DNA of 64,000 nt, taken from assembly GCA_013215375.1 (NCBI GenBank), contig JABSRB010000014.1, forward strand, positions 1 to 64,000. Direction: 5' to 3'. The position numbers and the translations under genes are program-made. The notes beneath the pieces are model-generated. The model ran no database searches. It was not told the DNA's origin and was given only the letters and a program-made list of their open reading frames with translations. This DNA is from Oceanospirillaceae bacterium. Lineage in GTDB: Bacteria > Pseudomonadota > Gammaproteobacteria > Pseudomonadales > Balneatricaceae. Shown one piece after another: positions 15,463 to 53,988 of the stretch (positions within the stretch are counted from its first letter, which is position 1; every line of letters starts with the position of its first letter).

Positions 15463-15834
15463 ATGTGTCAGTGTTTTCCTGCCTTTAGCACCCAAGATCC
15501 CGCTATTAATCAATTGCGGCACAAAATTCGCTATGCCTTAGAAGAAGATAACCCAGGCTTAGTGACGCTTTGGCTGTCTATGGAAGACAGTGTTAAGAGC
15601 GCTGAGATCAGTAGCTGCTGGCATCTTTATTGCGCGCAGTACAAACTGTTGATTGATACTTTAAGCGATGATTTATTGCCAAAACACTGGCGGGTCTGTT
15701 GCCTTGATAATATTTACCGGCCGCTCAGCTCTCTTCAACGTATCGCTATCACTCATGATCAGCGCCAACATTTAAATAAACTCTATTACGAACTAAGAGT
15801 TATCAGTCTCTTCTTTCAAAATGGGCTTAGTTAA
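15463..15834 (+). CDS. fagA: FagA-like Fur-associated protein
   Basis: 123 aa from ATG 15463 (the frame also has a GTG two codons earlier). It resembles Pseudomonas FagA, the small protein encoded just upstream of fumC: KIRYALEEDNP, YKLLIDTLSDDLLPKHWRVCCLDNIYRPLSSLQRIA. Molecular function is not established. Two cysteines at the start (MCQCF) and a CC pair (VCCLD) are visible. Transcribed from a Fur-controlled promoter, with fumC 197 bp downstream and a MITE in between. Confidence 0.8.
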   Translation: MCQCFPAFSTQDPAINQLRHKIRYALEEDNPGLVTLWLSMEDSVKSAEISSCWHLYCAQYKLLIDTLSDDLLPKHWRVCCLDNIYRPLSSLQRIAITHDQRQHLNKLYYELRVISLFFQNGLS

Positions 15835-15998
15835 TCCTAAATTCGACAGTTGAATCCGATAAGTAAACACAAATTCTTGATGCACCTAGAAAACCAGAAA
15901 ATATTATTATCACCAATCAGGTGAATACAAAATTTTCTAACTCCCTATGTGCACCAATATATACACTCCTTTTTCGCGCTCAATCGCCGAATCTAGGA
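15835..15998 (-). mobile_element. MITE, copy A (164 bp)
   Basis: Terminal inverted repeats TCCTAAATTCGACAGTTGA (left) and the complement of TCCTAGATTCGGCGATTGAG (right). Direct TAA duplications flank it (15832-15834, 15999-16001). The interior matches copy B at 53807 in reverse orientation along its whole length, with scattered substitutions. No coding capacity. It separates fagA from fumC and ends 33 bp before the fumC ATG. Confidence 0.85.
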
Positions 15999-16031
15999 TA
16001 ATAGTTCAGATAATCAACTAAAGGAAAAAAC

Positions 16032-17408
16032 ATGAGTTATAGAATTGAAGCCGATAGTATGGGCGAATTACAAGTTCCTAGCGAGGCATTGTATGGCGCT
16101 CAGACACAGAGAGCGGTCAATAATTTTCCGGTCAGTGGTCAATCTTTGCCCAGGTCCTTTATTGAAGCCTTGTTACTGGCGAAATCAGCGGCGGCATCAG
16201 CCAATGCAGAGTTGAATTTGATCTCCCAAGAGATGGCGACTGCGATTATTGAATCTGTAGATGAGTTATTGAGCGACCCGCAGATGATGCGACACTTCCC
16301 GGTAGATGTTTACCAAACAGGTTCTGGTACTAGTTCGAACATGAATGCGAATGAAGTGTTAGCCACTTTAGCCAGTATAAGATTAGTCGACAAAGTCGGT
16401 GCTAATGATCATGTTAACTATGGACAGAGCAGTAACGATATCATCCCTAGTGCCATACACATTAGCGCGGCTATCGGTGTTGAAAAGAAGTTGTTACCGG
16501 CACTTACACATTTAATGACAGTGATTAAAGCCAAGGCGAAAGACGTTGATCACCACATTAAAACTGGCCGTACCCATTTAATGGACGCTATGCCGGTGAG
16601 AATGAGCCAAAGTTTGCTAAGCTGGGCTTCACAAATTGAGCAAAACATAAAAGTGTTAGAGGCTTCACAAGACGCATTACAAAGCTTGGCGCAAGGGGGC
16701 ACTGCTGTCGGTACTGGCATTAATGCACATCCAGAATTTGCGAAAAAATTCAGTGAAAATATCAGTCGCTTAACCGTGGTTAAATTTACCCCCGCGGATA
16801 ATTTATTCAGCCATATTGGTACCCAAGACATCGCTGTTTCTGTTTCAGGAGCGCTAAAAACAGTGGCGGTATCACTGCTTAAAATATCCAACGATTTGCG
16901 TTGGATGAACTCAGGCCCTCTGGCGGGTTTAGGTGAAATAGCCCTCGAGGCTCTGCAACCAGGCTCTTCTATAATGCCGGGTAAAGTAAACCCGGTAATT
17001 CCAGAAGCTACGGCTATGGTGGCAGCGCAAGTAATAGGCAATGACAGTGCCATTACTATCGCAGGTCAATCGGGCAATTTTGAGCTGAATGTGATGTTGC
17101 CGTTAATCGCCAATAATTTATTGAGCAGCATTGAATTAATCAGTAATGTGAGTGTATTACTGGCTGATAAGGCGATAGCGACTTTTACAGTGAATGAAGA
17201 AGCGCTAAAGTTTGCTCTTTCCCGTAATCCTATCTTAGTTACTGCTTTGAACCCTATTATAGGTTATGAAAAAGCGGCGTTAATTGCCAAGAAAGCTTAC
17301 GCAGATGGCCGTCCGGTATTAGATGTGGCAGAGCAAGAGACGGATATTCCACGCGTTGAACTAGAGAAATTACTGGATCCTACAAAACTGACCCACGGCG
17401 GGATTTGA
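16032..17408 (+). CDS. fumC: class II fumarate hydratase
   Basis: 458 aa, iron-independent fumarase converting fumarate to malate in the TCA cycle. The superfamily signature GSSIMPGKVN lies at about residues 311-320; TGSGTSSNMNANEV and GRTHLMDAMPV are intact. The ATG follows AAAGGAAAAAAC. Expression behind Fur-regulated fagA fits replacing iron-sulphur fumarase when iron is short. The sodA that follows in Pseudomonas is absent: the next gene is convergent. Confidence 0.96.
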   Translation: MSYRIEADSMGELQVPSEALYGAQTQRAVNNFPVSGQSLPRSFIEALLLAKSAAASANAELNLISQEMATAIIESVDELLSDPQMMRHFPVDVYQTGSGTSSNMNANEVLATLASIRLVDKVGANDHVNYGQSSNDIIPSAIHISAAIGVEKKLLPALTHLMTVIKAKAKDVDHHIKTGRTHLMDAMPVRMSQSLLSWASQIEQNIKVLEASQDALQSLAQGGTAVGTGINAHPEFAKKFSENISRLTVVKFTPADNLFSHIGTQDIAVSVSGALKTVAVSLLKISNDLRWMNSGPLAGLGEIALEALQPGSSIMPGKVNPVIPEATAMVAAQVIGNDSAITIAGQSGNFELNVMLPLIANNLLSSIELISNVSVLLADKAIATFTVNEEALKFALSRNPILVTALNPIIGYEKAALIAKKAYADGRPVLDVAEQETDIPRVELEKLLDPTKLTHGGI

Positions 17409-17541
17409 TATAGACAATCACTCTCAGTTTTTGATTGTGGGTGATTATTTACTGATTAAGATAAATAGCAGTAAATTGAAGAGGGTATTATCTGGCTAAG
17501 GGGGCATCAAGCGATGATAAATGCTGTATTAGCCGTTCTAG

Positions 17542-20500
17542 TTACATTGATACTTCTACATCGGCAAGGAGTTTATCAATGATTTGGTGCTGCTCATTAC
17601 TGAATATCGCTAAGTTTTGCAGAAATAGAGAGGTAGGTTCTGAAGTTTGAGTATCGTGCTCATTTGCTTGCGTTAAAATGGCACTAGATGTGTAATGAGA
17701 GAAAATATAGCGGAATATATCTTCGGCATTATCAGCGCTTATTTCATCGCCTGAATCAGTCTCTAACAGATCAGTGAGAGATAGCGACTGATCAGTATTG
17801 TAATACAGTTGAAAATTAAAGGTGTCTAATGGGCTGGTATCAATCCCTTCCATTGACAGTTTGCTGATCGCGTCACTGACAAATTGCAGGTTATCAGTGG
17901 CGTCCACAATAAGATTTTCAGCTTGGGCTGTGGCACTATTATCGATGTAGCTAAACCATACATCGGACAGTGATTGCTGGTTGCCGTCTGCATCGATATA
18001 GTAGCCTTCTAACGCTGTTGTATTACCGTTATTGTCTATACTCACCTGCTCTGAAAATAAACTTAATTGGCTAACGCCTAATTCTTCAAGTGAAAATAGC
18101 TCATCAGTTTGTGATATACCATCAGAGTTAGCATCAACCCAGAGTTGTAACTGAGAAAATATTTGATCTTCGCTGTCAATAACTCCATCTTTATTAGCGT
18201 CATATTCAGTTAGGGCATCGAAGCCATCACTTGCCTTGTTGCCATCAGCTTTTAGCATATGTTCACCAAAAAGCTCGGAAGCATTGTTTATTAGACCATC
18301 CTGGTTCAAATCTAATACTAGCAATGCATCGTCAGCTGAGACCCATCCCGTTTGCTCTTCGGTGCCGTCAGCGTTTATGTCAAACGTTACACCTTGGCTA
18401 TAATTAATAGTTTCAATGCCGTCTTGGTCTAAATCTAAAATCAATGGACTAGAAAAAGAGATATCGTGATTGTTTGGGCTTAAAAATTCATGACCTATAT
18501 GGACAAAACGAGTAGTTCCTCCATAAGTGACAGTGGCATGTACGTTTTGACCTGGAGTCATTGGAAAATTACCAGTGACGCTAAACCCTCCATTACCCCC
18601 GTTAACCGAAACCGTGAGTGACCCCACCTCGCCATGGCTACCTACAAAAAGCTTAACCACTGATCCGGCTGGCAACCCACTGACATTGACATGAGGATCG
18701 GTAATATGGGCACCACCATTACCTCCCCATCGAGCTGATCCGCTAGTTACCGCCGAAATAAAAGCTGAAACCTCATCGTAAGTATCAACGGTCAATGAAG
18801 AACTTGCCGAACTGCTCGAGATGTTACCTGCCGCATCAGTGATAGCCGCACTTAAGTTGTAGCTGCCATCTGCTAAATTACTACTGGGTGTGACACGCAC
18901 TAGAACGTTAACAATATCTAATGCAGTAAGTACATGCGAACCTATTGCAGTGCTGTTGTTGTATAAAATTAAGATATCGCCGGCGACTGCATCAGCTGGT
19001 AGGTTAACAGTAAATTCAGGTCTTTGATCATCGGTGGTTGCACCATTGGCAATACTTCCCTGAGAGCCACCAACATCATCTAAAACAGATACTAAGGAGG
19101 GCGCACTAGAGGCTGCAGTATCGGTATTTATATCGTAGCTGTTAGAAGTTGATCCTGTATTTCCAGCAGCATCGACCACCTCGGCTGTGTAAGTGTAGTT
19201 AGTAAGATCAGTTAGTGCTGCATCGTCATAACTCCAGTTTGTACCAGTGACAACCGCCTGCCCAATCACGAAACCATCACGCAGTACATTAACCACCTCA
19301 TTTGCCGCCAATGCACTGTCTAAATTACCATTAATCTGTGGTGATAAATCATTGCTACTTCCCCCATCCGCGATGGTGCCTGTTTGGGGCGCTACATTAT
19401 CTTGAATATCCGTAATGGTCACTGTCTGACTAGGTGCTGTGGTATCTATGTTTATTATATACGGGCTAAGTTCTGCGCCTGTGTTACCTGCATCATCAAT
19501 TATTTGTGTAGTATAGGTGTAGCTATTGCCATCAATTAAACCGCTGTCATTATAATCCCAGCTGGTGGTAGTAACTGATGCTTGACCTATGATCACCCCG
19601 TCGCGCAATATATTCAGAACTTCCGCTGTGGCTAATAATGCACTTAGAGTTCCGTTTAATACTGGGGTCGTATCATTGGTGGTGCCACCATTGCCAATAC
19701 CTGCAATAATTGGCGATACGTTATCCTGAATGTTAGTGATAGTTGCGGTTTGAGTGGGAGCACTGCTGTCGATATTTATCGTATAACTACCTGAAATACC
19801 ACCAGCGTTACTAGCACTATCAATTACTTGCGCAGTGTAAATATAACTGTTGCCATCGATTAAGCCTGAATCTGCATAGCTCCAGGTAGTTCCAGAAACC
19901 GTGGCTTGTCCGATAACTACACCAAACCTTAAGATATTCAAGCTTTCGCCTGCCTGTAGAGTAGTACTGAGAGTGCCATTGAGCACTGGGGTTGTATCGT
20001 TAGTAATGCCGCCATTAATAATAGTGCCTAACAATGAACCGACATCGTCCTGAATATCAGTAATAACGACACTTTGTATGGGCGCGATAGTATCGGTATT
20101 AATGGTATAGCTAGGGCTTATACCGCCAGTATTTCCAGCACTGTCCCGCACTTGCGCGGTATAAACATAACTATTGGCATCAATGAGCCCTGAATCGTTA
20201 TAGCTCCAGGCTAATCCTATAACACTGGCCTGACCTATCAATGCCCCATCTCTAAAAATATCTAGCACTTCATTGGTAGCCAAAGTTACATCTATAGTAC
20301 CGATAATGGCGGGGCTTAAATCATTGGTAAAACCACCATTGGTAACATTACCCAAAAAGAGGGGAATATCATCGATAACATTAGTAATGGTCACAGTTTG
20401 AGTGGGGGCAGAGGTGTCTACGTCAATACTGTAGATTGTTGATAGCAGGCCTGTATTACTTGCTGCATCGATAATTTGAGTGGTGTAGATGTAGTTATTA

Positions 20501-22800
20501 CCATCTATAAGTCCTGTATCGTTGTAACTCCAGCTAGTACTAGTCACACTTGCCTGGCCAATAACAGTACCATTTCTGAGAATATTAAGGCTCTCGCCTG
20601 CCAATAAAGCAGCACTGAGTGTGCCAGTTAATACTGGTGCAGTATCATTGGTGGTATCACCGTTAGCCACAGTACCCGTGATAGGCCCTACATCATCTTG
20701 AATATCAACGATAGACGGGGTTTGAGTCGGGGCACTTGTGTCTAAATTGATAGTATAAGTGCTGGAGAGTGCACTTATATTACTGGCAGCATCGATAACT
20801 TGGGCAGTATAAATATAGCTATTGCCATCAATAAGTCCTGTATCAGTATAGCTCCAATTGGTGGTGGTGACGCTTGCCTGGCCGATAATCACTCCATCTC
20901 TGAATATATTAACGCTTTCACCTGAGAGTAAGGCAAAGCTTAAAGTACCATTTAAAAGTGGCGTGGTGTCGTTGGTGATGCCACCATCGGCAATGGTGCC
21001 TGATGCTGGCAACTGGTTATCTTGAATATCGGTAATCGATAAGGTTTGTAAAGGGGCGCTAATATCAGTATTTATAGTGTAACTGTTACTTAATGCGCTG
21101 ATGTTACCGGCACTGTCTCGCACGAGCGCCGTATAGTCATAATTATTGGCATCTGTAAGACCACTATCGTCATAGCTCCAAGCTAAGCCTATCGTGCTGG
21201 CTTGCCCTAAAAGCGATCCATCTCTGTATATATCAATCACTTCACCCGCTGCTAAGGGGTTATCTAAGGTGCCGATGATTTGCGGACTGAGATCATTTGT
21301 TGTAGCGCCATTGCTCACATTGCCGGTATAGGGCGAAAAATTATCTAATATTGTGGTAATGGCAATTACTTGTGTGGGCGCACTGATATCGATAGCAATG
21401 GTGTAGGTATTGGAGAGAGGACCTATGTTACTGGCGGTATCTACCACTTGTGCGGTATAGGCATAGCTACTGCCATCCACTAGTCCGGTATCGTAGTAGC
21501 TCCAACTTGTGCCTGTCACACTGGCTAGGCCAATCACCACGGCGTCTCTGAGAATAATGACATTTTCACCTGCGAGTAATGTAGCGCTGAGGGTACCATT
21601 GAGCAGTGGTGCGGTATCGTTAGTAGCGCCTCCATTTAGAACGGTACCTAAGACGAGTGAAATGTCGTCTTGAATGTCGGTAATGGAGACGTTTTGAGTA
21701 GGGGCATTGGTATCAATGATGATGGAATAGGTATTGGAAAGTGCTCCAAGATTACTAGCGGCATCAATAATTTGTGAGGTGTAAACATAAGTATTGCCGG
21801 TGCTAAGCCCTGTGTCTTGGAAGCTCCAGGAAGTATTTATCACACTCGCTTGGCCAATAATAGCCCCGTCTCTGATAATGTTAAGCTGTTCGCCCGCCTG
21901 TAAAGAGGTAGTTAAACTGCCATTTAGTTGTGGGGAAGTATCGTTGCTAACTCCTAAGTCGGCTACTGTATGTATATTGGGTACTACATCGTCATGTATG
22001 TCGGTAATGGTCGCCGTTTGCGTGGGTGCTTTGTTGTCAATGTTAATAGTAAAAATAGGGGAGAGTTGGCCCAATAAGTCTCCAGGCCTAACAACTTGGA
22101 CGGTATATTGGTACTCGTGCGCTGTGTCTAATGAAGAATCCTGAAATTGCCAAGAAGTACCAGAGACAGTGGCGATACCAATAATTCTGCCATTGCGCAG
22201 TACTTGAAGATGTTCAATGGGGGTCAAGCTTTGTGACAATACCCCCATCAGCAATGGTGAGGTATCGTTACTGTATCCCTTATGGCCAATGTCACCCAGT
22301 GTCGGATATTGATCATCGTAGATGCCATTGATGGAGCCATTGGTTCTAGGTTTTATTTTGGCAGGGTCTTCCAGTTCTCTACTATTGATATCGGGAAAGG
22401 CATTGGAAGTTGTCACGTCAAAACCGGCGGTTGGGTTTATCTCTAGTGCACTGCGATCAACCAAAGTGAAATTTGTATGTTGTTCACGGTGTAAATTGGA
22501 GAAGTCATAGGTACTTAAATTAAATGAAGAGCCTTGGACTCTAACGCTGTCGGATAACAATACTGGGACTTCAATATCAGAAGTTGCATATTTAGACTGT
22601 ACAGATTGGTGTAAGCTTTCATTAAGATAAACTGTCTCGCCATTGTATAAGTCTATTTCTAATCTTGAATTGGCTGGGATATCGATATTGTCATCAGCAA
22701 AGACAGGATCGCCTAAATGCAGCGATCTAACTTCCCCACGATAATTCGTCGCTAAAATATTACCAATTTGTAAACTAACAACGCCAATAACCCACTGCAT
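17542..22800 (-). CDS. giant LapA-like repeat adhesin
   Basis: 1752 aa. The first ~75 residues (VIGVVSLQIGNILATNYRGEVRSL-type start, GDPVFADDNI) resemble the outer-membrane retention module of LapA-type adhesins. Then come Ig-like repeats of 108 aa: one divergent, nine close, one divergent (about residues 150-1337). A Gly/His-rich module follows, then five EF-hand-like Ca2+ loops (DLDQDG, DINADG, DLNQDG, DANKDG, DANSDG; about 1450-1560) and an acidic C-terminus. It has no RTX nonapeptides. Probably type I secreted and cell-surface; no secretion or LapG/LapD genes are nearby. Function in attachment is inferred. Confidence 0.75.
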   Translation of the reverse strand: MQWVIGVVSLQIGNILATNYRGEVRSLHLGDPVFADDNIDIPANSRLEIDLYNGETVYLNESLHQSVQSKYATSDIEVPVLLSDSVRVQGSSFNLSTYDFSNLHREQHTNFTLVDRSALEINPTAGFDVTTSNAFPDINSRELEDPAKIKPRTNGSINGIYDDQYPTLGDIGHKGYSNDTSPLLMGVLSQSLTPIEHLQVLRNGRIIGIATVSGTSWQFQDSSLDTAHEYQYTVQVVRPGDLLGQLSPIFTINIDNKAPTQTATITDIHDDVVPNIHTVADLGVSNDTSPQLNGSLTTSLQAGEQLNIIRDGAIIGQASVINTSWSFQDTGLSTGNTYVYTSQIIDAASNLGALSNTYSIIIDTNAPTQNVSITDIQDDISLVLGTVLNGGATNDTAPLLNGTLSATLLAGENVIILRDAVVIGLASVTGTSWSYYDTGLVDGSSYAYTAQVVDTASNIGPLSNTYTIAIDISAPTQVIAITTILDNFSPYTGNVSNGATTNDLSPQIIGTLDNPLAAGEVIDIYRDGSLLGQASTIGLAWSYDDSGLTDANNYDYTALVRDSAGNISALSNSYTINTDISAPLQTLSITDIQDNQLPASGTIADGGITNDTTPLLNGTLSFALLSGESVNIFRDGVIIGQASVTTTNWSYTDTGLIDGNSYIYTAQVIDAASNISALSSTYTINLDTSAPTQTPSIVDIQDDVGPITGTVANGDTTNDTAPVLTGTLSAALLAGESLNILRNGTVIGQASVTSTSWSYNDTGLIDGNNYIYTTQIIDAASNTGLLSTIYSIDVDTSAPTQTVTITNVIDDIPLFLGNVTNGGFTNDLSPAIIGTIDVTLATNEVLDIFRDGALIGQASVIGLAWSYNDSGLIDANSYVYTAQVRDSAGNTGGISPSYTINTDTIAPIQSVVITDIQDDVGSLLGTIINGGITNDTTPVLNGTLSTTLQAGESLNILRFGVVIGQATVSGTTWSYADSGLIDGNSYIYTAQVIDSASNAGGISGSYTINIDSSAPTQTATITNIQDNVSPIIAGIGNGGTTNDTTPVLNGTLSALLATAEVLNILRDGVIIGQASVTTTSWDYNDSGLIDGNSYTYTTQIIDDAGNTGAELSPYIINIDTTAPSQTVTITDIQDNVAPQTGTIADGGSSNDLSPQINGNLDSALAANEVVNVLRDGFVIGQAVVTGTNWSYDDAALTDLTNYTYTAEVVDAAGNTGSTSNSYDINTDTAASSAPSLVSVLDDVGGSQGSIANGATTDDQRPEFTVNLPADAVAGDILILYNNSTAIGSHVLTALDIVNVLVRVTPSSNLADGSYNLSAAITDAAGNISSSSASSSLTVDTYDEVSAFISAVTSGSARWGGNGGAHITDPHVNVSGLPAGSVVKLFVGSHGEVGSLTVSVNGGNGGFSVTGNFPMTPGQNVHATVTYGGTTRFVHIGHEFLSPNNHDISFSSPLILDLDQDGIETINYSQGVTFDINADGTEEQTGWVSADDALLVLDLNQDGLINNASELFGEHMLKADGNKASDGFDALTEYDANKDGVIDSEDQIFSQLQLWVDANSDGISQTDELFSLEELGVSQLSLFSEQVSIDNNGNTTALEGYYIDADGNQQSLSDVWFSYIDNSATAQAENLIVDATDNLQFVSDAISKLSMEGIDTSPLDTFNFQLYYNTDQSLSLTDLLETDSGDEISADNAEDIFRYIFSHYTSSAILTQANEHDTQTSEPTSLFLQNLAIFSNEQHQIIDKLLADVEVSM
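19114..22029 (-). repeat. nine 324-bp tandem Ig-like repeats in A-A-B triplets
   Basis: Repeat starts (APTQ/APLQ) at 22029, 21705, 21381 and 21057 are exactly 324 bp apart, and the block ends where nine such units would end. Each unit runs from a variable T-ITDIQDD segment through ND(T/L)xP, GTL, RDGxxIGQAS, WSYxDxGL and AxNxGxLS to a final DT. Units 3, 6 and 9 carry NDLSP; the others carry NDTxP, giving a 972-bp higher-order period. Confidence 0.85.
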
Positions 22801-23236
22801 TTTTTCACGCTATCTACATTCATCATTTTAGAGTCCATACAGACTAAGTATAGAAGTAGAATTTACGCTTTGCGTAGTGTGACTTAAGTTATTTTTAAGC
22901 ATTAAGCTTTCGTGTTTTCAGATGCCCGAAAATCACCTATTTATGCTAGTATTTGCGCTCGATTTTACAAGCCTATATATTTCATGTGTCCTTTACTAAA
23001 TGTATACAAAACAACCAAACAATAGCTTTTTATACTGTAAAAAGAGTTGAATCCGGAAAATTAGCCAAAAAAAAGCTGTCTTTTAGGTCAGGTTTTTTAT
23101 AGATTCTGTACTTGTATAAAAATAATAAACCAATTTGTTAGTTATTTAATGTGATGTTGACCTATAGATATATTAGAAAAACAAGCTTGAAAATTGTCAA
23201 AAATATCGCATTTGAACCACAAGGACACAACACAAG
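22801..23236. other. intergenic region before the nucleoside ABC operon
   Basis: 436 bp between divergent genes, AT-rich. I see no clear promoter, riboswitch or ORF. Its last 24 bp (TTTGAACCACAAGGACACAA, about 23211-23230) are a degraded copy of the widespread CCACAGAGGACACAGAGG intergenic repeat, and they supply the AAGGA that may serve as RBS for the next gene. Confidence 0.5.
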
Positions 23237-24811: not shown

Positions 24812-24822
24812 GCGGAGCCTAT

Positions 24823-26831: not shown

Positions 26832-27031
26832 ACAAGGTTGCGAGTGGCGGGTTACGAATTACGGGTAAGTTCAAGCCAAGTGATGCGGTAAGTGGTAAAT
26901 ACTATTTACCAGAGAGGAACTGGAGGAAAGCTTAAGACCAATATCGGTAACAGGTTTTTTCTTTTCTCGGTGTAGCGCAGCGCCTCTGTGTCCTCTGTGG
27001 TGAAATATGTTTGAAAGGTTGAGGAGCGTTT
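26832..27031. repeat. spacer with degraded intergenic repeats
   Basis: The first part has a GTTGCGAGTGGCGGGTTACG-like stutter; TGGTAAAT (26893-26900) and ATTTACCA (26904-26911) form a perfect small hairpin. On the minus strand 26968-27005 reads CACCACAGAGGACACAGAGG followed by CGCTGCGCTACACCG, the widespread bacterial intergenic repeat. The 61-codon minus-strand frame here (TTEDTEALRYTEK) is the usual false ORF made by that repeat. Confidence 0.6.
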
Positions 27032-31758: not shown

Positions 31759-31804
31759 AAATTAAAGCCTAAATAAAAATGTGTGGGACGTGAAAAGTGC
31801 ATTA

Positions 31805-31857
31805 TCCTAGATCCGGCGATTGAGCTTACTTATCCAATTCAACGGCCTAATTTAGGA
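31805..31857. mobile_element. MITE, copy C, internally deleted (53 bp)
   Basis: Starts TCCTAGATCCGGCGATTGAG and ends with the inverted counterpart ...GGCCTAATTTAGGA, i.e. little more than the two terminal repeats of copies A and B. Flanked by TTA on both sides (31802-31804 and 31858-31860). Lies 46 bp upstream of the DUF2750 start. Confidence 0.75.
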
Positions 31858-32032
31858 TTATAAACTAAGCGATGCTATTGGGAAACATATCGAAAGCCCG
31901 ATAGCGCTTTTGCTACACCAGTAAATACAGGGGGTCAGTTTCCTAACTCGGTCGGTATTCTTGTTCAGCACAAGACTTTGTCTTTAATCTCTGATTAAAT
32001 GCCCTTTCATAGGGAGTGACACAGAGGTGAGT

Positions 32033-41190: not shown

Positions 41191-41195
41191 TTTTA

Positions 41196-43042: not shown

Positions 43043-43052
43043 GGTGGAGATT

Positions 43053-44300: not shown

Positions 44301-44446
44301 CTCGATACCTTATTATATTTATTAGCAGCGCTTTAGTGGTCCCATTGTTAGGGAGTAAACATCTAGCGCTAGATAAATCCTCAGAAAACTGAGGCCCTGT
44401 ATTAAACTAACAAAGCGGCGACAAGAAAGGGGTCACACTGTGCAAT

Positions 44447-44461
44447 ACTTTGTCACAAAGT
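44447..44461 (-). promoter_or_regulatory. 15-bp palindrome upstream of the sugar operon
   Basis: ACTTTGT-C-ACAAAGT is a perfect 7-bp inverted repeat with a 1-bp centre, about 150 bp before the binding-protein ATG. A related half-site pair (TCACACTGTG, 44433-44442) lies next to it. This is likely a transcription-factor operator; which factor cannot be told. Confidence 0.5.
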
Positions 44462-44523
44462 GTAACGATTTGATGGGAAACGTTTTTTCTAAGCTATAGA
44501 GGCTTAAAATTTTCATTTAGTGG

Positions 44524-45528: not shown

Positions 45529-45570
45529 GGCTAATCCTCAATGGAGATGAATTTGGCGGAACCTTCCTCG

Positions 45571-46539
45571 CTAGGGGGCGGTTGATTTTTTTTCAATATT
45601 TAAATCACTCGCTAGTTGCTTGGCAAGCGTTTGTATTTCAATAGACTGCGCTACTATAGTGCTTATTCGTGCCACTAAGTCTGCGGTATTAGTGCCTTGG
45701 TGTTGACTGAGCTTGGTCAGTGCTATGGAAGTCTTGTTCAGTATCTTTATATAGCTAATTAAGGCCAATTCGAAGCTCCTAACTTTATGGGGTTGGTCAT
45801 TGCTACTTTGTAATGCACTTAATTGCCGTTGCAATCGTGTCGTCTGTTGAGGGTTATTACTTAGAGTGGCCCTCTTTAAAGCTATTTTAGTGCTGCCCAA
45901 ACGTTTGTTGTAGTGCGCTAGGTACAGTTGATATAACGCGGGGGTATCTTCAACAATAAAAGAGATTAAATTTTGTATATCACCACTGGCCGCCATCAAA
46001 GATTTGGCGCTACGCTGCTGAGCTTGGGCAGTTTCTAATTTAGTCACTAGTGCTTTAATGCTGGTTATAGGCAAACTTGATAAGAGGCTGCTGCCCACAT
46101 CTAATGGCGACGCAGCGAAAATATTGGTTACAGAGGCCGATAGATTTAATAGCTGATCAATTTTACTATTGATAGGCCCTGTGGGCTTTTCCAGTAAATG
46201 ATCTAGTAATAAAGCATTGTAGGTGGCAATGATTGCTAGCACTTGGCGTCGCAGTTTTATATCTGCAGAATCATTATCTCTATTTACCGCCTGTCCATTG
46301 GCAAGGGCAATATAAAAACAAGGTCTAAAGCCCATTTTAATATCGATATCACAGTGTCTATTATCAGCGCTGCTGTCTGAAGGCAAGACAAGATTCAGCT
46401 CATCCAAAATCAAATCACCAGAGTCTTGTACCCGGGAATATAAATTACTGTAAGCGGTTAACTCAATAGGGTTAATAGTCGAGCAGGCATTGAGTGAAAG
46501 TGCCAAAATAATAGCGAAGAGGGAGGTAATAGCGGGCAT
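45571..46539 (-). CDS. lipoprotein of unknown function
   Basis: 322 aa from ATG 46539, chosen because MPAITSLFAIILALSLNAC is a lipoprotein signal (Cys19) and AAGGA lies upstream; the frame is open 15 codons further. The mature part is mostly alpha-helical and rich in Leu, Ala and Ser, with two cysteines (RHCDI, RPCFYI). No family recognised. Co-transcribed with the lysozyme-like gene behind it, so it may anchor, regulate or neutralise that enzyme (inference). Confidence 0.6.
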   Translation of the reverse strand: MPAITSLFAIILALSLNACSTINPIELTAYSNLYSRVQDSGDLILDELNLVLPSDSSADNRHCDIDIKMGFRPCFYIALANGQAVNRDNDSADIKLRRQVLAIIATYNALLLDHLLEKPTGPINSKIDQLLNLSASVTNIFAASPLDVGSSLLSSLPITSIKALVTKLETAQAQQRSAKSLMAASGDIQNLISFIVEDTPALYQLYLAHYNKRLGSTKIALKRATLSNNPQQTTRLQRQLSALQSSNDQPHKVRSFELALISYIKILNKTSIALTKLSQHQGTNTADLVARISTIVAQSIEIQTLAKQLASDLNIEKKSTAP

Positions 46540-46806
46540 ATTCAGATATATCCTTAGGCTGGCTCTATTACAATTTACTGTCATAGAGCGATCAGACCTA
46601 CCACTTTAAAGATGCCTATTGATCGTTATGTCCTATTAGTGGATTGCAAAAACGAGAGTGCTAAGTTGATGTTTATCTGCAATAACTTTATAAAAAACAA
46701 TAAACTAAAATATTTATGCCCAGATCTGAAAAATTGATATAGACTTAATTGTAAGTGAAGTGTCATCGGCACTAACACTGTAAAATAGTTTAAAGGAGAG
46801 TTTATA

Positions 46807-47487
46807 ATGATAAGAGCACCTCAAAAATTGTTAGCTATCGCCTTATTTTCAGCCACGGCCTCGGTCAGTGCCGCAGGCTTTGAGCAAGACAATTTAAGCG
46901 TTGGCGCGCAAATTGGTATGTTAGGTTATGGTTTGAACGCCGAGTATCAATTCACTGATCAGTTCAGCGGCCGGGCTGAATTTAATACTTATTCCAGGAC
47001 GCTCAATAAAACAGAGAGCGATGTAGATTATAAGTTTAAAGCGAAGTTAAATACTTTTGGGTTATTGGCGAACTATCAACCGTTCAATAATGGCTTCCAT
47101 GTCACTGGTGGTATCTATCACAATGGTAATAAATTAACAGGCAGTGGTCAGTATATCGGTACACAGAATCTAGTAATTGGTGATGTTTCATACGCTGGCA
47201 CTGAATTAGCGAGTGTGGATACTAAAATCGATTTTAATAGTATAGCTCCCTATCTAGGTGCTGGCTATAAAGCCAATTTTGGCGCTATAAGTGTTGGTTT
47301 TGATGTTGGTGTGCTGTTTCAGGGAACTCCAGATGTGTCGCTTACCGTCGTGCCTACAGCGACTCTAGTGGGCTCAGTTGCAGCATTACAAACAGAAGTA
47401 GACAAAGAAATAGCCGAGCTAAAAGACGATCTTAAAGATTTCAAATACTTGCCTGTGGTTAAAGTAACCTTTAGCTATGAATTTTAA
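46807..47487 (+). CDS. outer-membrane beta-barrel protein
   Basis: 226 aa; signal peptide ending VSA-AGFEQ; alternating amphipathic strands (LSVGAQIGMLGYGLNAEYQFTDQFSGRAEFNTYSR; KLNTFGLLANYQPFNNGFHVTGGIYHN; PYLGAGYKANFGAISVGFDVGVLFQG) and a C-terminal aromatic VKVTFSYEF, the usual outer-membrane insertion signal. A short charged coil (EVDKEIAELKDDLKDF) precedes the last strand. Specific role unknown. RBS AAAGGAGAG. Confidence 0.8.
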   Translation: MIRAPQKLLAIALFSATASVSAAGFEQDNLSVGAQIGMLGYGLNAEYQFTDQFSGRAEFNTYSRTLNKTESDVDYKFKAKLNTFGLLANYQPFNNGFHVTGGIYHNGNKLTGSGQYIGTQNLVIGDVSYAGTELASVDTKIDFNSIAPYLGAGYKANFGAISVGFDVGVLFQGTPDVSLTVVPTATLVGSVAALQTEVDKEIAELKDDLKDFKYLPVVKVTFSYEF

Positions 47488-47502
47488 GTTTTATTTTTCT
47501 AG

Positions 47503-47528
47503 AAAAAGCCTCGGATTCGAGGCTTTTT
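47503..47528. terminator. bidirectional rho-independent terminator
   Basis: AAAAAGCCTCG (47503-47513) and CGAGGCTTTTT (47518-47528) around GATT, with T-runs on both strands; shared by the convergent barrel-protein and histidine-kinase genes. Confidence 0.92.
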
Positions 47529-47536
47529 TGTAGAGG

Positions 47537-49000
47537 TTATGCGGATCTAGGGATTGAAAGTGGTAGTCTCAAGCTCACTTTAAGGCCGCTTGGCTGTAAA
47601 TTCTCCAGCTCAATATCACCCCCATGTGCCCGAGCTATATTACGCGCAATTGATAATCCTAAGCCCATCCCACCGCTGTGTCCCTCTTTGGGTAATACCC
47701 TGATATAGGGTTCAAAGACTTGTTCTATGTCACCGTTGGGGATGCCTGGTCCGTCATCATAGATATCGATAAATAAATGTTTGTCTGTCTCTCGCAAAGT
47801 AATACTGACATAGTTGCCATAGTGCAGTGCGTTGTCCAATAAGTTACCAATGCAGCGCTTGAGGGCCAGTGGTTTGCCGATAAAATGGGTGACTTTAGAG
47901 CCCTTGATGAGTAAGTTTTTACCGGCAATTTTAGAATCTTCTAAAAAGTTATCTAACAGGCGGGAGATATCAACCGCGGTTTGGTTTTCGTGAATATCTG
48001 TTTCACTGACGCTCTGTAAAGCCCCTTTCACCATTAAATCCAAATCTTCTAAATCACGGTTAAAGGCTTCGCGCGCAGTGTCGTCATCCAATAACTCTGC
48101 GCGTAATCTCAAGCGTGTTATGGGTGTTTTTAAGTCGTGAGATATTGAGGCAAACAAGCGCTCTCGGTCATTTAAATAACGTTGGATACGCTGCTGCATG
48201 TTGTTGAACGCTTGTGCAGTGAGTTGCTCCTCATTACTGCCACGCACGGGAACTAACACCGCTTCACCGCGGCCAACACGCTCTGCTGCGCGCCCTAGTC
48301 GGCGTATCGGGATAGTGATATAACGCACCCCCCAAATGCCTATTAACATCACGGTCAAGAGGGAAACGAGTAATGAAATTAGCCGCTCACCAGATAGTGG
48401 CGAGCCGCTGTCTTCCAAAAGTAAGCTGGGGATGACGGTCGCGACATATAACCACTCTTTATCGTTAATCGGAAACTGTACGACTAAGATAGGAGTGTCG
48501 TAAGGCGCGAGCATTAGTGTTTGATGGCCCCAGCGCTCAGGTAAGTCAGAAAGTTTGGTGTGGTTATTGAGTACTTTCAGGTCTTTTGGCTGAGAAAATA
48601 CAATACTGATCGGCGTGTTATCTCCAAGCTCTTTGTGCAGAGCTTTATTAAACGCTTCAATTACAATAGATTTTGCCGGGGTGTCTACCGCATCTTCAAG
48701 AATGATTTTTACTTGGTTTAAGGTGACAAAAAATCGAGTGCCGCCCATATCTCGCAACTGATCTAACACTAAGTGGCGGTAGGAATTAGGCAGTTTAATA
48801 AAAAACCTGACCGTAGAGGTCACTCGGTTGGCCATTGCCACTGACATATCAGCGACGCGAGTTTCATAATCTGAACGCCACTGGGCGGTCCAAATGGCAT
48901 TGCTGATCAACTGCGCCAGCACTACTCCAATCGCCATCATGAGAATGATGCGCAGGTTCAGAGAGATAGGGTTTTTGAAGCGATTAATGAATTGAAGCAT
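47537..49000 (-). CDS. EnvZ-type sensor histidine kinase
   Basis: 487 aa inner-membrane kinase. TM1 about residues 16-36, periplasmic sensor 37-205, TM2 206-226, HAMP (RYITIPIRRLGRAAERVGRGE), phospho-acceptor His288 in SISHDLKTPITRLRLRAELL, N box IGNLLDNALHYGN, G1 DDGPGIP, G2 GMGLGLSIARNIARAHGG. Start overlaps the regulator gene by 17 bp. In Pseudomonas a similar pair (GtrS/GltR) controls the gts sugar operon; the Gts-like operon lies 3 kb away, so that role is plausible. Confidence 0.92.
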   Translation of the reverse strand: MLQFINRFKNPISLNLRIILMMAIGVVLAQLISNAIWTAQWRSDYETRVADMSVAMANRVTSTVRFFIKLPNSYRHLVLDQLRDMGGTRFFVTLNQVKIILEDAVDTPAKSIVIEAFNKALHKELGDNTPISIVFSQPKDLKVLNNHTKLSDLPERWGHQTLMLAPYDTPILVVQFPINDKEWLYVATVIPSLLLEDSGSPLSGERLISLLVSLLTVMLIGIWGVRYITIPIRRLGRAAERVGRGEAVLVPVRGSNEEQLTAQAFNNMQQRIQRYLNDRERLFASISHDLKTPITRLRLRAELLDDDTAREAFNRDLEDLDLMVKGALQSVSETDIHENQTAVDISRLLDNFLEDSKIAGKNLLIKGSKVTHFIGKPLALKRCIGNLLDNALHYGNYVSITLRETDKHLFIDIYDDGPGIPNGDIEQVFEPYIRVLPKEGHSGGMGLGLSIARNIARAHGGDIELENLQPSGLKVSLRLPLSIPRSA

Positions 49001-49715
49001 CCGATTGCTCCACAGGTACGGTTAATACATAGCCTTTGCCACGCACTGTTTTTATGATGACGGGGTTTTTAGCATCTTCAGCGAGAACGTTGCGCAACCG
49101 GCTTACGTGCATGTCGACAAATCGATCCAGTGGGGCTGCTTCACGTCCGCGGGTGCTGCCGGCGATGGTTTCGCGCGAGAGGGTCTCTCCAGGATTCAGT
49201 AAAAACAACTTCAATAATTCAAAATCAGAGCCGTTTATCAGTACTTTTGTCGCATTGTTATCAAGCAGTTCTCTGCAGGTAGTGTCTAGCTGAAACCCGG
49301 AAAATTGATAATAGCGTTTGGTGCTGCTCTCGGGTTCAGCGGGACTGGAACGCCTGAGAATCGCTTTAATTCTAGCTAATAACTCACGTGGGTTGAAAGG
49401 CTTCGCCAAATAGTCATCTGCACCAAGCTCTAGACCAATGATTCGGTCTGTTTCATCTGAATTTGCAGTTAACATCATCACCGGGATTTGGCTAAAGGTG
49501 CGCAGCCTGCGGCACACTTCAAAACCGTCTATATCAGGCAGCATAATGTCTAAAACGATCAGATCATAACTTGGATCTTGTTCTATGGCCGCTAAAAAAC
49601 TTAGGCCATTGATCGCACAAGCTACTTCAAAGCCATTTTTGCTGAGGTAAGTTTGTAAAAGTACGCCAATTTCAGGATCGTCGTCAACGACGTATATTTT
49701 TCTATTTTCAATCAT
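48984..49715 (-). CDS. OmpR-family response regulator
   Basis: 243 aa. Receiver domain with acidic pocket DDD (11-13), phospho-accepting Asp56 in LIVLDIMLPDIDGFEV, Thr in MLTAN and Lys in LAKPFNPRELLARI; C-terminal winged helix (about 140-235; TLSRETIAGSTRGREAAPLDRFVDMHVSRLRN, TVRGKGYVLT). Transcribed ahead of and overlapping the kinase gene. Confidence 0.94.
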   Translation of the reverse strand: MIENRKIYVVDDDPEIGVLLQTYLSKNGFEVACAINGLSFLAAIEQDPSYDLIVLDIMLPDIDGFEVCRRLRTFSQIPVMMLTANSDETDRIIGLELGADDYLAKPFNPRELLARIKAILRRSSPAEPESSTKRYYQFSGFQLDTTCRELLDNNATKVLINGSDFELLKLFLLNPGETLSRETIAGSTRGREAAPLDRFVDMHVSRLRNVLAEDAKNPVIIKTVRGKGYVLTVPVEQSDASIH

Positions 49716-49953
49716 ATAGACAATATTTATGCTGCAAGATTAATAGGAATAATGATAAACATACTACCTATGTCAGTCTTATAAGTATGTAAGTGGCAAT
49801 ATTAGAATTGTAACAAAGTGTAGATAAGGTTTGAATTTATACGATTATCTTATCATTTTCTAGATTATATATCTGGCGTCGAATAAAGGCTGAGGCACTG
49901 TTTAGTGCGTTGTAGTACTATTTTAGAAAAATCAAAACTAAAGGGACATTGGA

Positions 49954-50664
49954 ATGACAGCAGTAGTTGGAGTGGGATTAATTGCTTTTTTGGCGGGTCT
50001 AGCGATGCCTTTTGGAGCATGGTTGGCGAAGCTAGAGGGGAAAAGGTCGCCGCTTTATAACGAAGCTCTGCACCATACTATTATTGCCTTTGGCGGGGGA
50101 ACCCTGCTCGCCGCCGTCGCCTTAGTCCTAGTGCCTCAAGGCACTGAAAATCTATCGGCAATCGCCAGCGCGGTGTTCTTTATTCTCGGAGGCCTTGCCT
50201 TCATGGGCTTGGATATACTCCTTTATCGATGGAAAACCCCCGCTAGCCAATTAATGGCGATGTTGACCGATTTTATCCCTGAGTCCTTAGCGCTCGGAGC
50301 ACTTTATCTCTTTCACCCGCGAGCCGCTTTGCTCTTGGCTATGTTCATAGCACTACAGAATATACCTGAAGGATTCAACGCATATCGGGAGCTGCGCAGT
50401 GGTGGAAAAATGAGTGGCAATAAAATATTACTATTGTTTTTCGCGATGTCTTTTGCAGGGCCTATCGCAGCGATTGTGGGGTTGGTTTTTTTGTTTGACT
50501 CTCCCAAGAGCATTGCGGCGATCATGTTAATTGCCGCAGGCGCCATACTCTATTCTCTGTTTCAAGACATAGCACCCAAAGTGGTTCTTCAGCATCACTG
50601 GCTACCGCCGATGGGCGCGGTGTTAGGTTTTACTTTAGGCCTGCTTGGATATTTAATCATTTAG
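49954..50664 (+). CDS. ZIP-family divalent metal transporter
   Basis: 236 aa with about eight hydrophobic helices. Metal-site motifs: DFIPESLALGA (Asp106, Glu110) in helix 4 and ALQNIPEGF (135-140) in helix 5; the usual histidine of the second motif is replaced by Gln. Probably imports Zn2+ or another divalent cation. Divergent from the two-component genes; RBS AAAGGGAC. A Fur-like AT-rich stretch lies at 49843-49860. Confidence 0.87.
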   Translation: MTAVVGVGLIAFLAGLAMPFGAWLAKLEGKRSPLYNEALHHTIIAFGGGTLLAAVALVLVPQGTENLSAIASAVFFILGGLAFMGLDILLYRWKTPASQLMAMLTDFIPESLALGALYLFHPRAALLLAMFIALQNIPEGFNAYRELRSGGKMSGNKILLLFFAMSFAGPIAAIVGLVFLFDSPKSIAAIMLIAAGAILYSLFQDIAPKVVLQHHWLPPMGAVLGFTLGLLGYLII

Positions 50665-50758
50665 TCGCAGGCAACAATTTGGAACGGTGATAGGATTTTT
50701 TGGTCACTTACAGTTAATTATAGATATAGCTATTTTTAGGATTTAAAAGGAATTAAGC

Positions 50759-52228
50759 ATGCAAAATAGACGACCTCGACTCACTAGTGGTTACACTTTG
50801 GTTATTCACGAAGTGACAACAAGTAGCGTCAAAGTTTGGGTAGGGGCGCTGAGTCCCTCAATGGTAAAACCCGAGAAATGGCGCTTATGCCTAGCACAGG
50901 TAGATAGCTTTAGCGATGAGATGGCGTCTGAGCAAGCTTTGGTGCAAGTAGACTTTGTTAAAGATGTCTGGAAACGGCCCTTTAATGCGCTCAATAAACG
51001 GTTTTACCATGTGCATACCTTGCATGATTTGCCGGCAACTACGGATTTTGTATTACGTTTTGAAGTGGAGCGTGACGGACAGTGGCACGTTCTCGAAACG
51101 GCATATTTCTCTACGCTTCCAGAGCAACTACCAACCAGCGGTAAAGCATTCACCATCGGCCTGGGCTCTTGTTTTTATGCCAAGCATGATGGCGGGCGAG
51201 CAGCGAATGCCTATGAGGCATTGTATAAAAATGAGCAACTGCGACCCGACATAAAATTTTTGGTGGGCGATCAGGTCTATGTGGACATAGGGCTCGGCTT
51301 ATACCCTTTGAGCGACGATGACTGCCAGGACCGGATCGCCGATGAATATGTAAAAAGTTGGGAGTTGCTACGCAGTATGTTGCGCCGCGGGGGAACTTGG
51401 ATGCTGGCTGATGACCATGAGTACTGGAATAATTATCCTTATCTCAAAGGTTTTAATCCCTATTTGATTACTTTAGGGCTTAGTGATCGTTTTAAAGACC
51501 GCTGGGAAAAGGCCGCCAAAATGGGCGTGGATGTCGTGCAACAAATGCAGCCACTACGTACCTTTAATATAGGTTCACAGCTGTCTTTTTGCGTGGCAGA
51601 TATGCGCTCCAACAGAACTGATCAAGGTTTTATGACCCCCGTTGCCTTTGAGCAACTGATTGCTTGGGTGAAAGGTTTGACTTGTCCGGGGATTCTAGTG
51701 ATTCCGCAACCGTTGATAGCAAAAAATGGCGATGATAATGACTCTAATCTTCCTGATTGGCCACAATACGAACAACTACTATTGGCGATGCATAACGGAA
51801 ATCACGATCTAGTAGTGTTGACTGGTGATGTACACTACGGGCAAGTATCCCAAGTGCAAATAGGCAATAGTGGCAATAAATTAGTAGAAATAATCACCTC
51901 TCCTATGTCTAATCTTTCGGAGCTCGATGGTATTGCCACTGCCGTACCTCCCAAAGCTTACCGACAGAAATTTCCTTTCAATGCTATCCCAGGGATTGAG
52001 CGACAAAAAATCACTCGCAGCGCTAAAGTATCGACTCAGAGCAAGTGGTGGGATTTACGTTTTCCCAGCAAGCGCACCACAGAGCACTTTATGACTTTAG
52101 ATTTCAAACCCACATCAAAGGGGATAATGATGAGCGTGCATGCGTGGGATGCGCGTAATATCGACCGACGCACTAAACTTCCCAAGACCATAGCGGGATT
52201 TAAGCCGAAGCCGATATTGATAAAATAA
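50759..52228 (+). CDS. PhoD-like metallophosphatase
   Basis: 489 aa, no signal peptide seen. An N-terminal beta domain is followed by the PhoD-like metallophosphatase core: GLGSCFYAKHDGGRAANAYEAL, VGDQVYVD (Asp about 170), ADDHEYWNNYP (about 217-226), LTGDVHYGQ (about 355-363). Family members are phosphodiesterases/phosphomonoesterases using Fe/Ca or similar metals. Lack of a Tat or Sec signal suggests cytoplasmic action, unlike classical PhoD. RBS AAAGGAATT. Confidence 0.82.
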   Translation: MQNRRPRLTSGYTLVIHEVTTSSVKVWVGALSPSMVKPEKWRLCLAQVDSFSDEMASEQALVQVDFVKDVWKRPFNALNKRFYHVHTLHDLPATTDFVLRFEVERDGQWHVLETAYFSTLPEQLPTSGKAFTIGLGSCFYAKHDGGRAANAYEALYKNEQLRPDIKFLVGDQVYVDIGLGLYPLSDDDCQDRIADEYVKSWELLRSMLRRGGTWMLADDHEYWNNYPYLKGFNPYLITLGLSDRFKDRWEKAAKMGVDVVQQMQPLRTFNIGSQLSFCVADMRSNRTDQGFMTPVAFEQLIAWVKGLTCPGILVIPQPLIAKNGDDNDSNLPDWPQYEQLLLAMHNGNHDLVVLTGDVHYGQVSQVQIGNSGNKLVEIITSPMSNLSELDGIATAVPPKAYRQKFPFNAIPGIERQKITRSAKVSTQSKWWDLRFPSKRTTEHFMTLDFKPTSKGIMMSVHAWDARNIDRRTKLPKTIAGFKPKPILIK

Positions 52229-52253
52229 AAGGGAGGGGGGTCTTAAGTCGCTG

Positions 52254-52398
52254 GTCGTTAGTTCAAAGACTAAGATAAGAATCTTTGAACCACAGGGTGC
52301 AGAGTTGCTGCGGTAAATGACACACTTAGTCCCATACAGCTAATTAATCACAAAGGTCTTGTATAAGCGATTAATTTGGCTCGAACTTGACTAACGAC
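52254..52398. repeat. inverted-repeat-bounded intergenic segment
   Basis: GTCGTTAGT (52254-52262) and ACTAACGAC (52390-52398) are inverted and bound about 145 bp. Inside, GTTCAAAGA (52261-52269) pairs with TCTTTGAAC (52282-52290), and TTTGAACCACAGGGTGCAGAG (from 52285) is a degraded copy of the CCACAGAGG repeat. No ORF. It separates the phosphatase gene from mnmE, which converge. Confidence 0.45.
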
Positions 52399-52404
52399 TG
52401 ATCC

Positions 52405-53772
52405 TTATTTTCCGATACAGAAGCTGGAGAAAATCTTGCCTAACAAATCATCGCTGCTGACCTGGCCAGTAATTTCGCCGAGTGCCTGCTGTGCTTGACG
52501 TAAATCTTCAGCGAGTAATTCGCCGGCGTTGTTGTGAATTAACTGGGCTAAACCGGTGTTTAGTAACTCGTCGGCGCGATCTATGGCATCTAAGTGACGG
52601 CGCCTAGCGAGGAAGCCACCCTCTGCCGTCGCCTGGTAGCCCATGCAAGTTTTCAAGTGCTCACGTAAGACATCCACGCCTAAATCGGCTTTTGCCGATA
52701 AGTTGATGATTTCAGTACCTTGGGTGCTGTGAATGCCGATAGTCTCGCCGGTTAAATCAGCTTTGTTGCGCACAATCGTGATTTTACTATCGTCGTTTAA
52801 TTGATCGACAAATTCCGGCCATATTTGATGAGGATCATCTGCGGCGGTTTGAGTACTATCGACGATCAATAAAATTCGGTCTGCATTTTGGATTTCCTGC
52901 CAAGCTCGGCTGATGCCGATGCGCTCTACTTCGTCAGGAGCATCCCTTAGGCCTGCAGTGTCGATAATATGTAAAGGCATGCCGTCGATATGGATGTGTT
53001 CGCGTAATACGTCTCTGGTGGTGCCTGCGATGTCTGTGACTATTGCAGCATCTTTGCCGGCCAAGGCATTTAATAAGCTGGATTTTCCGGCATTGGGGCG
53101 TCCTGCGATGACTACGTTCATGCCCTCGCGGATGATGCTGCCCTGTTTAGCTTCCGCTTTAACCGCCCGCAAGTTGGCCATAATGCCCTCAAGGCGATTT
53201 AATACGATGCCATCGGCGAGAAAGTCAATTTCCTCCTCGGGGAAATCAATAGCGGCCTCGACATAGATGCGTAAGTTGGTTAGCCCTTCAACGAGTTCAT
53301 AAATACGTTTGGAAAATTCGCCCTGCAATGATCTAAGTGCGCACTTGGCGGCCTGTTTGGATGAACTGTCGATTAAATCGGCAATGGCTTCAGCTTGGGC
53401 TAGATCCATTTTATCGTTGAGGAAAGCGCGTTCAGAAAATTCGCCAGGGTTTGCCAAGCGACAACCCAGAGCTTGTACTCGCTCCAGTAAAAAGTCCATC
53501 ACGATAGGGCCACCATGACCCTGTAGCTCTAATACATCTTCACCGGTAAAAGAGTTGGGGCCTGGAAAATACAGTGCTATTCCCTCATCAAGCTCAACGC
53601 CTTGTTCATCCAAGAAAGGTCCATATTGTGCATAGCGAGGCTTGGGCACTTTGCCTAACACTTGCGTCGCTATTTCACTCGCTTTGGGGCCAGACACTCG
53701 AATAATGCCAACACCACCGCGTCCGGGTGCTGTTGCCTGCGCGGCAATAGTATCTGTAGAGGTGAATGGCAT
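52405..53772 (-). CDS. mnmE: tRNA modification GTPase MnmE
   Basis: 455 aa. N-terminal tetrahydrofolate-binding domain ([21 protein letters not shown]), central helical domain, G domain with G1 GRPNAGKS (224-231), DIAGTTRD and DTAGLRD, and the catalytic C-terminal CIGK. Partner of MnmG in wobble-uridine modification. Downstream of yidC in the ancestral rpmH-rnpA-yidC-mnmE order, with a MITE inserted in the gap. Confidence 0.97.
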
Positions 53773-53806
53773 AGTGGTGGCTCCGATTAAGTAACAAGTA
53801 TTGTGA

Positions 53807-53971
53807 CCCTAGATTCGGCGATTGAGCGCGAAAAAGGAGTGCAAGATATTGGTGTGCATAGGAAATTAGAAAATTTTGTGGTCACCTTATTGGTGATGAA
53901 AATATTTTCTGTTTTTCTAGGTGCATCAAGAGCTTGTGCTTACTTTCGTGACTCAACTGCCGAATTTAGGG
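53807..53971 (+). mobile_element. MITE, copy B (165 bp)
   Basis: Begins CCCTAGATTCGGCGATTGAG and ends with inverted GCCGAATTTAGGG; TGA is duplicated on both sides (53804-53806, 53972-53974). Reverse complement of copy A (15835-15998) over its full length with scattered changes. It lies between yidC and mnmE, just upstream of the mnmE start, and creates a false 85-codon plus-strand ORF. Confidence 0.85.
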
Positions 53972-53988
53972 TGATTAGTCTAAACGCA

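Follow-up and report, generated by a model that had tools for sequence, protein, structure and literature searches.

Three palindromic elements upstream of genes in one genomic window

The window analyzed here is a stretch of 64,000 nucleotides from the genome of an Oceanospirillaceae bacterium (GenBank assembly GCA_013215375.1, contig JABSRB010000014.1, positions 1 to 64,000; genome of 5.0 Mb in 96 contigs, 95% complete; here, the host genome). It carries three related elements with inverted terminal repeats (Table 1). With gene identities assigned by Pfam, the fumC start codon lies 34 bp downstream of copy 1, the start of a DUF2750 gene 47 bp downstream of copy 2, and the mnmE start codon 35 bp downstream of copy 3. 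An original prediction, made from the letters of the window without database searches, had described the three elements and placed each within 50 bp of a gene start, and both points are confirmed: the window holds six matches to the end pattern, against 0.08 expected. We conclude, with a probability of about 0.9, that these are palindromic miniature inverted-repeat transposable elements (MITEs) moved by a transposase from a divergent clade within the IS1380 family of insertion sequences (IS).

The predicted limits were 1 bp too wide on each side once the 5-bp duplications described below are counted as target. Copies 1 and 3 are 88% identical by BLAST in inverse orientation, as expected of the predicted reverse complements, and copy 2 consists essentially of the two termini, again as predicted. 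Among open reading frames (ORFs) of at least 25 amino acids (aa), the two long copies contain no transposase-sized frame and are crossed only by frames of 26 to 85 aa, so a transposase acting in trans would be needed, as had been proposed. An Rfam scan of the window at gathering scores gave no match. Pattern scans around copy 3 yielded no promoter-like site and one terminator-like site, which lies outside the element.

A dispersed, multicopy family

The description of a three-copy family holds within the window only. Copy 1 extended by a base at either end, as a 164-bp query, gave at least 34 BLAST matches in the host genome (40 of 59 first-look candidates scored), so that the search for further copies suggested with the original prediction succeeded. 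A 19-base end pattern, allowing up to two mismatches, matched this genome 89 times, versus 4 times for a reversed-pattern control, and 47 two-ended elements were paired from 58 loci. These measure 25 bp (13 elements), 32 bp (1), 33 bp (6), 51 bp (2), 75 bp (1), and 160 to 163 bp (21), with one each of 186, 213, and 233 bp. Pairwise identity among the 24 copies that reach 155 bp or more averages 0.89 and peaks at 0.975. At loci longer than 1.5 kb, a crude ORF rule places 3 of 40 elements within a called ORF; under the same rule and with no chance control, 25 of the 40 were counted by eye as having a gene start no more than 50 bp away. Inverted ends and target duplications on so many copies bear out the claim of a transposed, multicopy MITE family.

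Comparison of orthologous loci, also suggested at the outset, gave an empty site for one insertion. The flanks of copy 3 are contiguous in the congener G003 (contig positions 2889 and 2891), where the element and one duplication are absent, together with a few bases of other difference. No element is evident at the sites of copies 1 and 2 in G003, although the divergence of the flanks there does not allow the break to be located.

Elsewhere, a 165-bp copy 3 query matched 7 of 57 genomes including the host genome, two of them weakly (G001 and G056), and the 164-bp query had no match in plasmid and phage collections. The exact 18-base end matched at least 108 stretches of named genomes. Because about 60 hits to the 18-base pattern would be expected by chance across the named-genome collection if bases were uniform, and because 58 of the 105 loci examined have no second end, we count only two-ended elements or ends adjacent to a transposase; a spread of the end motif over many phyla was rejected on these same grounds. 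Two-ended elements occupy the other 47 loci, and 40 of these loci have duplications matching at four or more of five positions. Pseudomonadota account for one part of the 40 (Legionella, Roseateles, Paucibacter, Thiorhodococcus, Nitrosovibrio, and metagenome-assembled genomes [MAGs], one of them Magnetococcales); the remainder are Verrucomicrobiota (e.g., Methylacidiphilum) and one other MAG. Two-ended relatives thus occur in several gammaproteobacteria, Burkholderiales, and Verrucomicrobiota. The end motif is also present in five viral contigs (L320 to L324), with no second end listed; these may be chance matches.

Target duplications are 5 bp long

The target duplication of these elements is 5 bp of the form N-T-N-A-N, not 3-bp T-N-A. 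Across the 47 host copies, the left and right flanks match at frequencies of 0.74, 0.81, 0.72, 0.87, and 0.81 at the five successive positions. At the outer two positions, the flanks agree in 73 of 94 comparisons for the host genome (permuted mean, 39) and in 84 of 98 for other genomes (permuted mean, 38), the latter set comprising 49 elements after three loci of the congener G004 (a MAG listed as Oceanospirillaceae bacterium DT_74, identical stretch) were left out as congeneric. Duplication identity at a length of 5 is 0.79 in the host genome and 0.86 elsewhere, against 0.19 to 0.38 at lengths of 3, 4, 6, 7, and 8. At least four of five positions match in 35 of 47 host copies (14 with 5/5) and in 40 of 49 others (29 with 5/5).

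The original prediction had read 3-bp T-N-A duplications and guessed at an IS5-family (IS1031-like) donor; the IS1031 group of that family follows a T-N-A duplication rule. Its T-N-A does appear, mostly, at the inner three positions. The base beside these three is complementary at both ends in 37 of 47 host and 40 of 49 other elements, so that it could be taken for part of the inverted repeat, and where the outer bases are complementary, at least one of them is unduplicated in 13 of 37 host and 9 of 40 other elements, which favors the 3-bp reading. Among elements with noncomplementary outer bases, 5 of 10 in the host genome and 6 of 9 elsewhere nevertheless carry a direct duplication of both outer positions. 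Perfect duplications with noncomplementary outer bases (GTTAT, GTAAT, GTGAT, TTGAC, TTAAC, ATGAA, TTAAT, and ATTAA) contradict the IS5 reading and make an inverted repeat plus 3 bp untenable, whereas the complementarity would be explained by, and is expected under, an enzyme preference for palindromic pentamers. Given this duplication length, and given that the transposases found beside such ends are all of the IS1380 type, the IS5-family donor is unsupported and was rejected; we regard that origin as very improbable.

Probable donor elements of a divergent IS1380 clade

Among the named-genome end matches listed, four loci have IS1380-like frames adjoining such ends. Autonomous elements were delimited at L241, L283, and L325 (Table 1). 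The family alignment of the L283 frame is lost near its end. L325 belongs to G096, a genome from another family of the order, which holds several copies of the transposase element; one of these, L337, has TTAAT/ATAAT flanks and a broken frame. The autonomous elements have one CCTAAAAAC-type end and one CCTARATTC-type end, and the MITE-type end fits the pattern exactly in L241 and L283 and with two mismatches in L325. The search for an IS with the same ends, suggested with the original prediction, thus succeeded in other bacteria, with one matching end each, but found none in the host genome. Both ends are of the ATTC type in the host MITEs and of the AAAC type in the G051 MITEs, which have a related interior; G051 also contains a fragment of the clade transposase. 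In the G051 MITEs at L034, L040, L043, L046, L054, and L058, whose interior is related to that of the window copies, both tips belong to the AAACC type, as though homogenization had made the ends of a palindrome alike.

Table 1. Positions of the MITE copies and their target duplications in the window, and of autonomous elements at loci in other genomes
Feature	Positions	Strand	Length or sequence	Remarks
Copy 1, left target duplication	15831..15835		TTAAT	Holds stop codon of upstream ORF 15457-15834
Copy 1, palindromic MITE	15836..15997	-	162 bp	Minus strand is the better-folding strand
Copy 1, right target duplication	15998..16002		ATAAT	Match 4/5
Copy 2, left target duplication	31801..31805		ATTAT	
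Copy 2, short form	31806..31856	+	51 bp	Two termini only
Copy 2, right target duplication	31857..31861		ATTAT	Match 5/5
Copy 3, left target duplication	53803..53807		GTGAC	
Copy 3, palindromic MITE	53808..53970	+	163 bp	Plus strand folds as one hairpin
Copy 3, right target duplication	53971..53975		GTGAT	Match 4/5
L241, autonomous element	445-2078		1634 bp	ATGAT/ATGAT; complete at both ends
L283, autonomous element	5941-7599		1659 bp	TTAAA/TTAAA; Terrimicrobiaceae, Verrucomicrobiota; complete at both ends
L325, autonomous element (G096)	1318-3005			TTCAA/TTCAA; open 521-aa frame

At the protein level, the clade transposases match Pfam PF13701 (cutoff, 34.7 bits) with 53.5 bits for L325, 63.1 for P0001, 66 for P0002, and 69.5 for P0003; P0004, a fragment cut by its contig, reaches 26.1 bits, below the cutoff. 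The best NCBIfam model for all five proteins scanned is IS1380 (NF033539). Since it is the best model and yet all five fall below its 180-bit cutoff, we speak of a divergent clade rather than of typical members, and in a tree of 19 proteins the clade stands apart with a support of 1.000. The Y-2-R-3-E-6-K motif is typical of the IS4 superfamily. This pattern is present in L325, L241, and L294 and in 3 of 16 other IS1380-type proteins; catalysis by a DDE (Asp-Asp-Glu) triad is predicted for the clade. When an alignment of the end-adjoining transposases was searched against 242 relatives, matches were obtained in nine, four of them weak (expect values [E] of 8e-6 to 8e-4).

Other IS1380 elements of the order share CCT starts and 5-bp duplications (L151, ATATT/ATATT; L127, ATGAC/ATGAC). 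No pair of CCTARATTCGGC ends was found in 30 loci of classical IS1380 elements of the order; at one of these loci, L143, CCTAAATTC followed by other sequence lies ~0.9 kb downstream. The IS1380 loci of the Balneatricaceae were checked for ends in part. The congener G003, which carries MITEs too, has a multicopy IS1380-family element (L187 and L211; 470 aa) with ends CCTAGCCCGCATRTTGCA. In a MAG titled Acidobacteria, an exact end motif adjoins an IS1380-like frame that is truncated at the start of the contig (L243, 3-732), a hint that the clade may occur in a further phylum.

These findings are consistent with a mechanism in which an IS1380-type transposase would recognize ends of the type CCTARATTCGGCNNTTGA and insert the element at quasi-palindromic N-T-N-A-N pentamers, the pentamer being duplicated. 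The clade transposase probably moved the host copies in trans, and its source may since have been lost from the host genome or may lie in an unassembled part of it. The MITE family would have spread mainly via intergenic DNA, often just upstream of genes.

Several observations weigh against this assignment. The search of 242 relatives found no clade transposase in the host genome or six congeners, and the host genome has no PF13701 match. The five proteins score 49 to 131 bits, against the 180-bit cutoff of NF033539; moreover, the family alignment of P0002 is lost toward the C terminus, P0003 is part of a broken gene, and P0004 is truncated. The two flanks of the G096 copy L334 differ (ATAAT and TTGAA), and its frame is broken. 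The MITE interior has no significant DNA similarity to an autonomous element; compared with the G096 element, it shares a single 9-bp word, at almost equal offsets, and 110 of 2,000 shuffles did as well. Eight of the 47 host copies match at three of five duplication positions and four at only two. Finally, the duplication of L151 (ATATT) and those given for ISEcp1, an IS1380-family element, in the available text of PMC10101111 and PMC2887853 (TATGA and TTTTC) depart from N-T-N-A-N; the target rule therefore does not extend to the whole family.

Several features of the elements are also those of extragenic palindromes of the kind formed by repetitive extragenic palindromic (REP) sequences and REP-associated tyrosine transposases (RAYTs): they are palindromic, mostly intergenic, and come in short forms of 25 to 33 bp. 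REP palindromes are not known to have target duplications. Here such duplications exist, as do DDE-type elements with the same ends. The REP tag given in the accessible part of PMC3733652, GTAG/CGTC, occurs at neither end of the element; a RAYT gene was not searched for. A REP/RAYT origin is therefore, in our judgment, less probable still than the IS5-family one, and the IS1380 clade is retained as the probable donor.

Origin of the short forms

The 25- and 33-bp forms are best regarded as deletion remnants, which would have arisen by deletions between short repeats near both ends. In the 163-bp consensus, GAATC is the only repeat of at least 5 bp whose deletion leaves less than 50 bp, and the product is the exact 25-mer at 4 of 13 25-bp sites. 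Deletion between AATC repeats predicts a 33-mer, matched with one mismatch at one of six sites. Further 4-bp repeats would give products of 31 bp, a size not observed, and of 32 bp; no predicted product corresponds to the two copies of 51 bp.

These palindromes could instead be separately mobile minimal transposons made of overlapping ends. In favor of such mobility are the number of copies of exactly 25 bp (13) and of 33 bp (6), full duplications on a few of them (ATTAA/ATTAA and TTAAA/TTAAA for the shorter size, TTCAA/TTCAA for the longer) and on a 25-bp copy in Legionella gratiana (TTTAA/TTTAA), and the misfit of nine 25-mers and five 33-mers to the deletion products by 2 to 6 bases each and of the sole 32-bp copy by 7. 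Against it stand the two deletions that do yield a 25-mer and a 33-mer and the older, more decayed duplications of the short copies: the middle duplication position matches at 0.50 in 22 short copies versus 0.92 in 24 long ones. In addition, 18-bp ends overlapping within 25 bp would leave little room for paired-end binding. We consider separate mobility unlikely, though still a serious alternative, and favor deletion.

A hairpin with G-U pairs mostly on one strand

Folded over its whole length, copy 3 reaches −81.8 kcal/mol on the plus strand (z score, −13.0) and −47.7 kcal/mol on the minus strand (z score, −6.9). All 24 long host copies form a single hairpin, with 10 to 17 G-U pairs on one strand and 0 to 4 on the other, whereas many elements of other genomes have little or no G-U asymmetry (e.g., L225, L226, L250, and L295). 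L226 (6927-7101), in a gammaproteobacterial MAG, is a 175-bp near-perfect palindrome of the same end type with 75 pairs and no G-U.

Using a structure from the host-family consensus, we aligned 30 copies (29 distinct): 21 host copies of 160 to 163 bp, with three longer host forms left out, 8 congeneric copies, and 1 from Psychrobium DT_95. In this alignment 95.9% of cells pair, and both-side changes occur at 16 pairs, compared with 3.3 in shuffles and 5 to 11 with partners slid. On a tree of 29 copies, from which the DT_95 copy was left out, 57 of 73 transitions from Watson-Crick pairs keep pairing and 16 break it; pairing is kept by 16 of 17 on inner branches and by 41 of 56 on tips. A second family of 20 copies of 231 to 235 bp, from Roseateles, Paucibacter, and MAGs, has no clear interior similarity to the first (best E, 0.06), and its copies all share the stronger strand. 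Here 66 of 89 such transitions keep pairing and 23 break it.

These patterns would be expected if the hairpin of one strand were conserved while the element was mobile, changes that make G-U pairs being kept and A-C mismatches lost. In that case a strand-specific hairpin, as RNA or single-stranded DNA, would matter for propagation of the element, even though the accepted view is that DDE elements transpose in double-stranded form. Changes confined to single copies, counted without a tree, are 12 kept to 9 broken in the host genome and 8 to 10 in the wider set; this near-even split speaks against selection after insertion, and the tree-based tip count (41 to 15) agrees poorly with it. A mutation process acting unequally on the two strands of the source copies could also account for the G-U excess. 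By direction, the host family shows more C>T than G>A changes (25 versus 14) and more A>G than T>C changes (27 versus 7); most of the excess in the 234-bp family comes from C>T relative to G>A (52 versus 21), with A>G and T>C numbering 9 and 7. Conservation of the hairpin during mobility is a tentative proposal that we think somewhat improbable. Selection on the hairpin at the host level via flanking genes was rejected, since the long copies have no orientation preference relative to their neighbors (22 sense and 24 antisense for 24 copies, counted by eye under the crude ORF rule).

The window contains one other dispersed repeat, at 26954-27018 (..CTCTGTGTCCTCTGTGGTGAA..), which has dozens of ~30- to 65-bp matches in G003, some arrayed at ~105-bp spacing, and a few in G004.

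Relation to known systems

Taken together, the results link small palindromic elements to a divergent lineage of IS1380, a family that has the resistance-gene mobilizer ISEcp1 as its best-known member, and supply a donor, an end type, and a target rule that can be put to the test. That G-U pairs favor the same strand in two families is a measurable sign that the hairpin, beyond the ends, may be selected in mobile elements. In the accessible portions of the open-access literature on IS1380, ISEcp1, MITEs, and MITE hairpins (including PMC4133298, PMC9208149, and PMC5896051), we found no IS1380-derived MITE and no name for these small palindromic elements.

Like Tn3-derived inverted-repeat miniature elements (TIMEs), Correia repeats, and QMITE1/2 of Coxiella, the elements are noncoding and multicopy, with inverted ends and hairpin folds, and the available text of PMC5896051 and PMC4133298 describes QMITEs as giving rise to small RNAs. 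In those excerpts, duplications are 5 to 6 bp for Tn3-type TIMEs and 2 to 3 and 7 to 11 bp for QMITEs, and no IS1380 link is reported for TIMEs, Correia repeats, or QMITEs. With the IS1031 group of IS5, the elements share T-N-A at the duplication center; they differ in the 5-bp length and the IS1380-type transposases.

The likeness to IS1380 itself lies in the 5-bp duplications, the CCT-starting ends, and the PF13701 matches of the clade transposases. ISEcp1, as given in the available parts of PMC10101111, PMC2887853, and PMC7864471, is flanked by 5-bp repeats and ends in CCTAGATTCTACGT and CCTAAATTCCACGT; its first nine end bases (CCTAGATTC / CCTAAATTC) are the same as those here, down to the G/A difference between the two ends. 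As far as those sources extend, the elements differ from ISEcp1 in the inner part of the end (GGC..TTGA here, TACGT/CACGT in ISEcp1), in the pentamer rule from which its duplications depart, and in their transposases, which form a separate clade below the NCBIfam cutoff.

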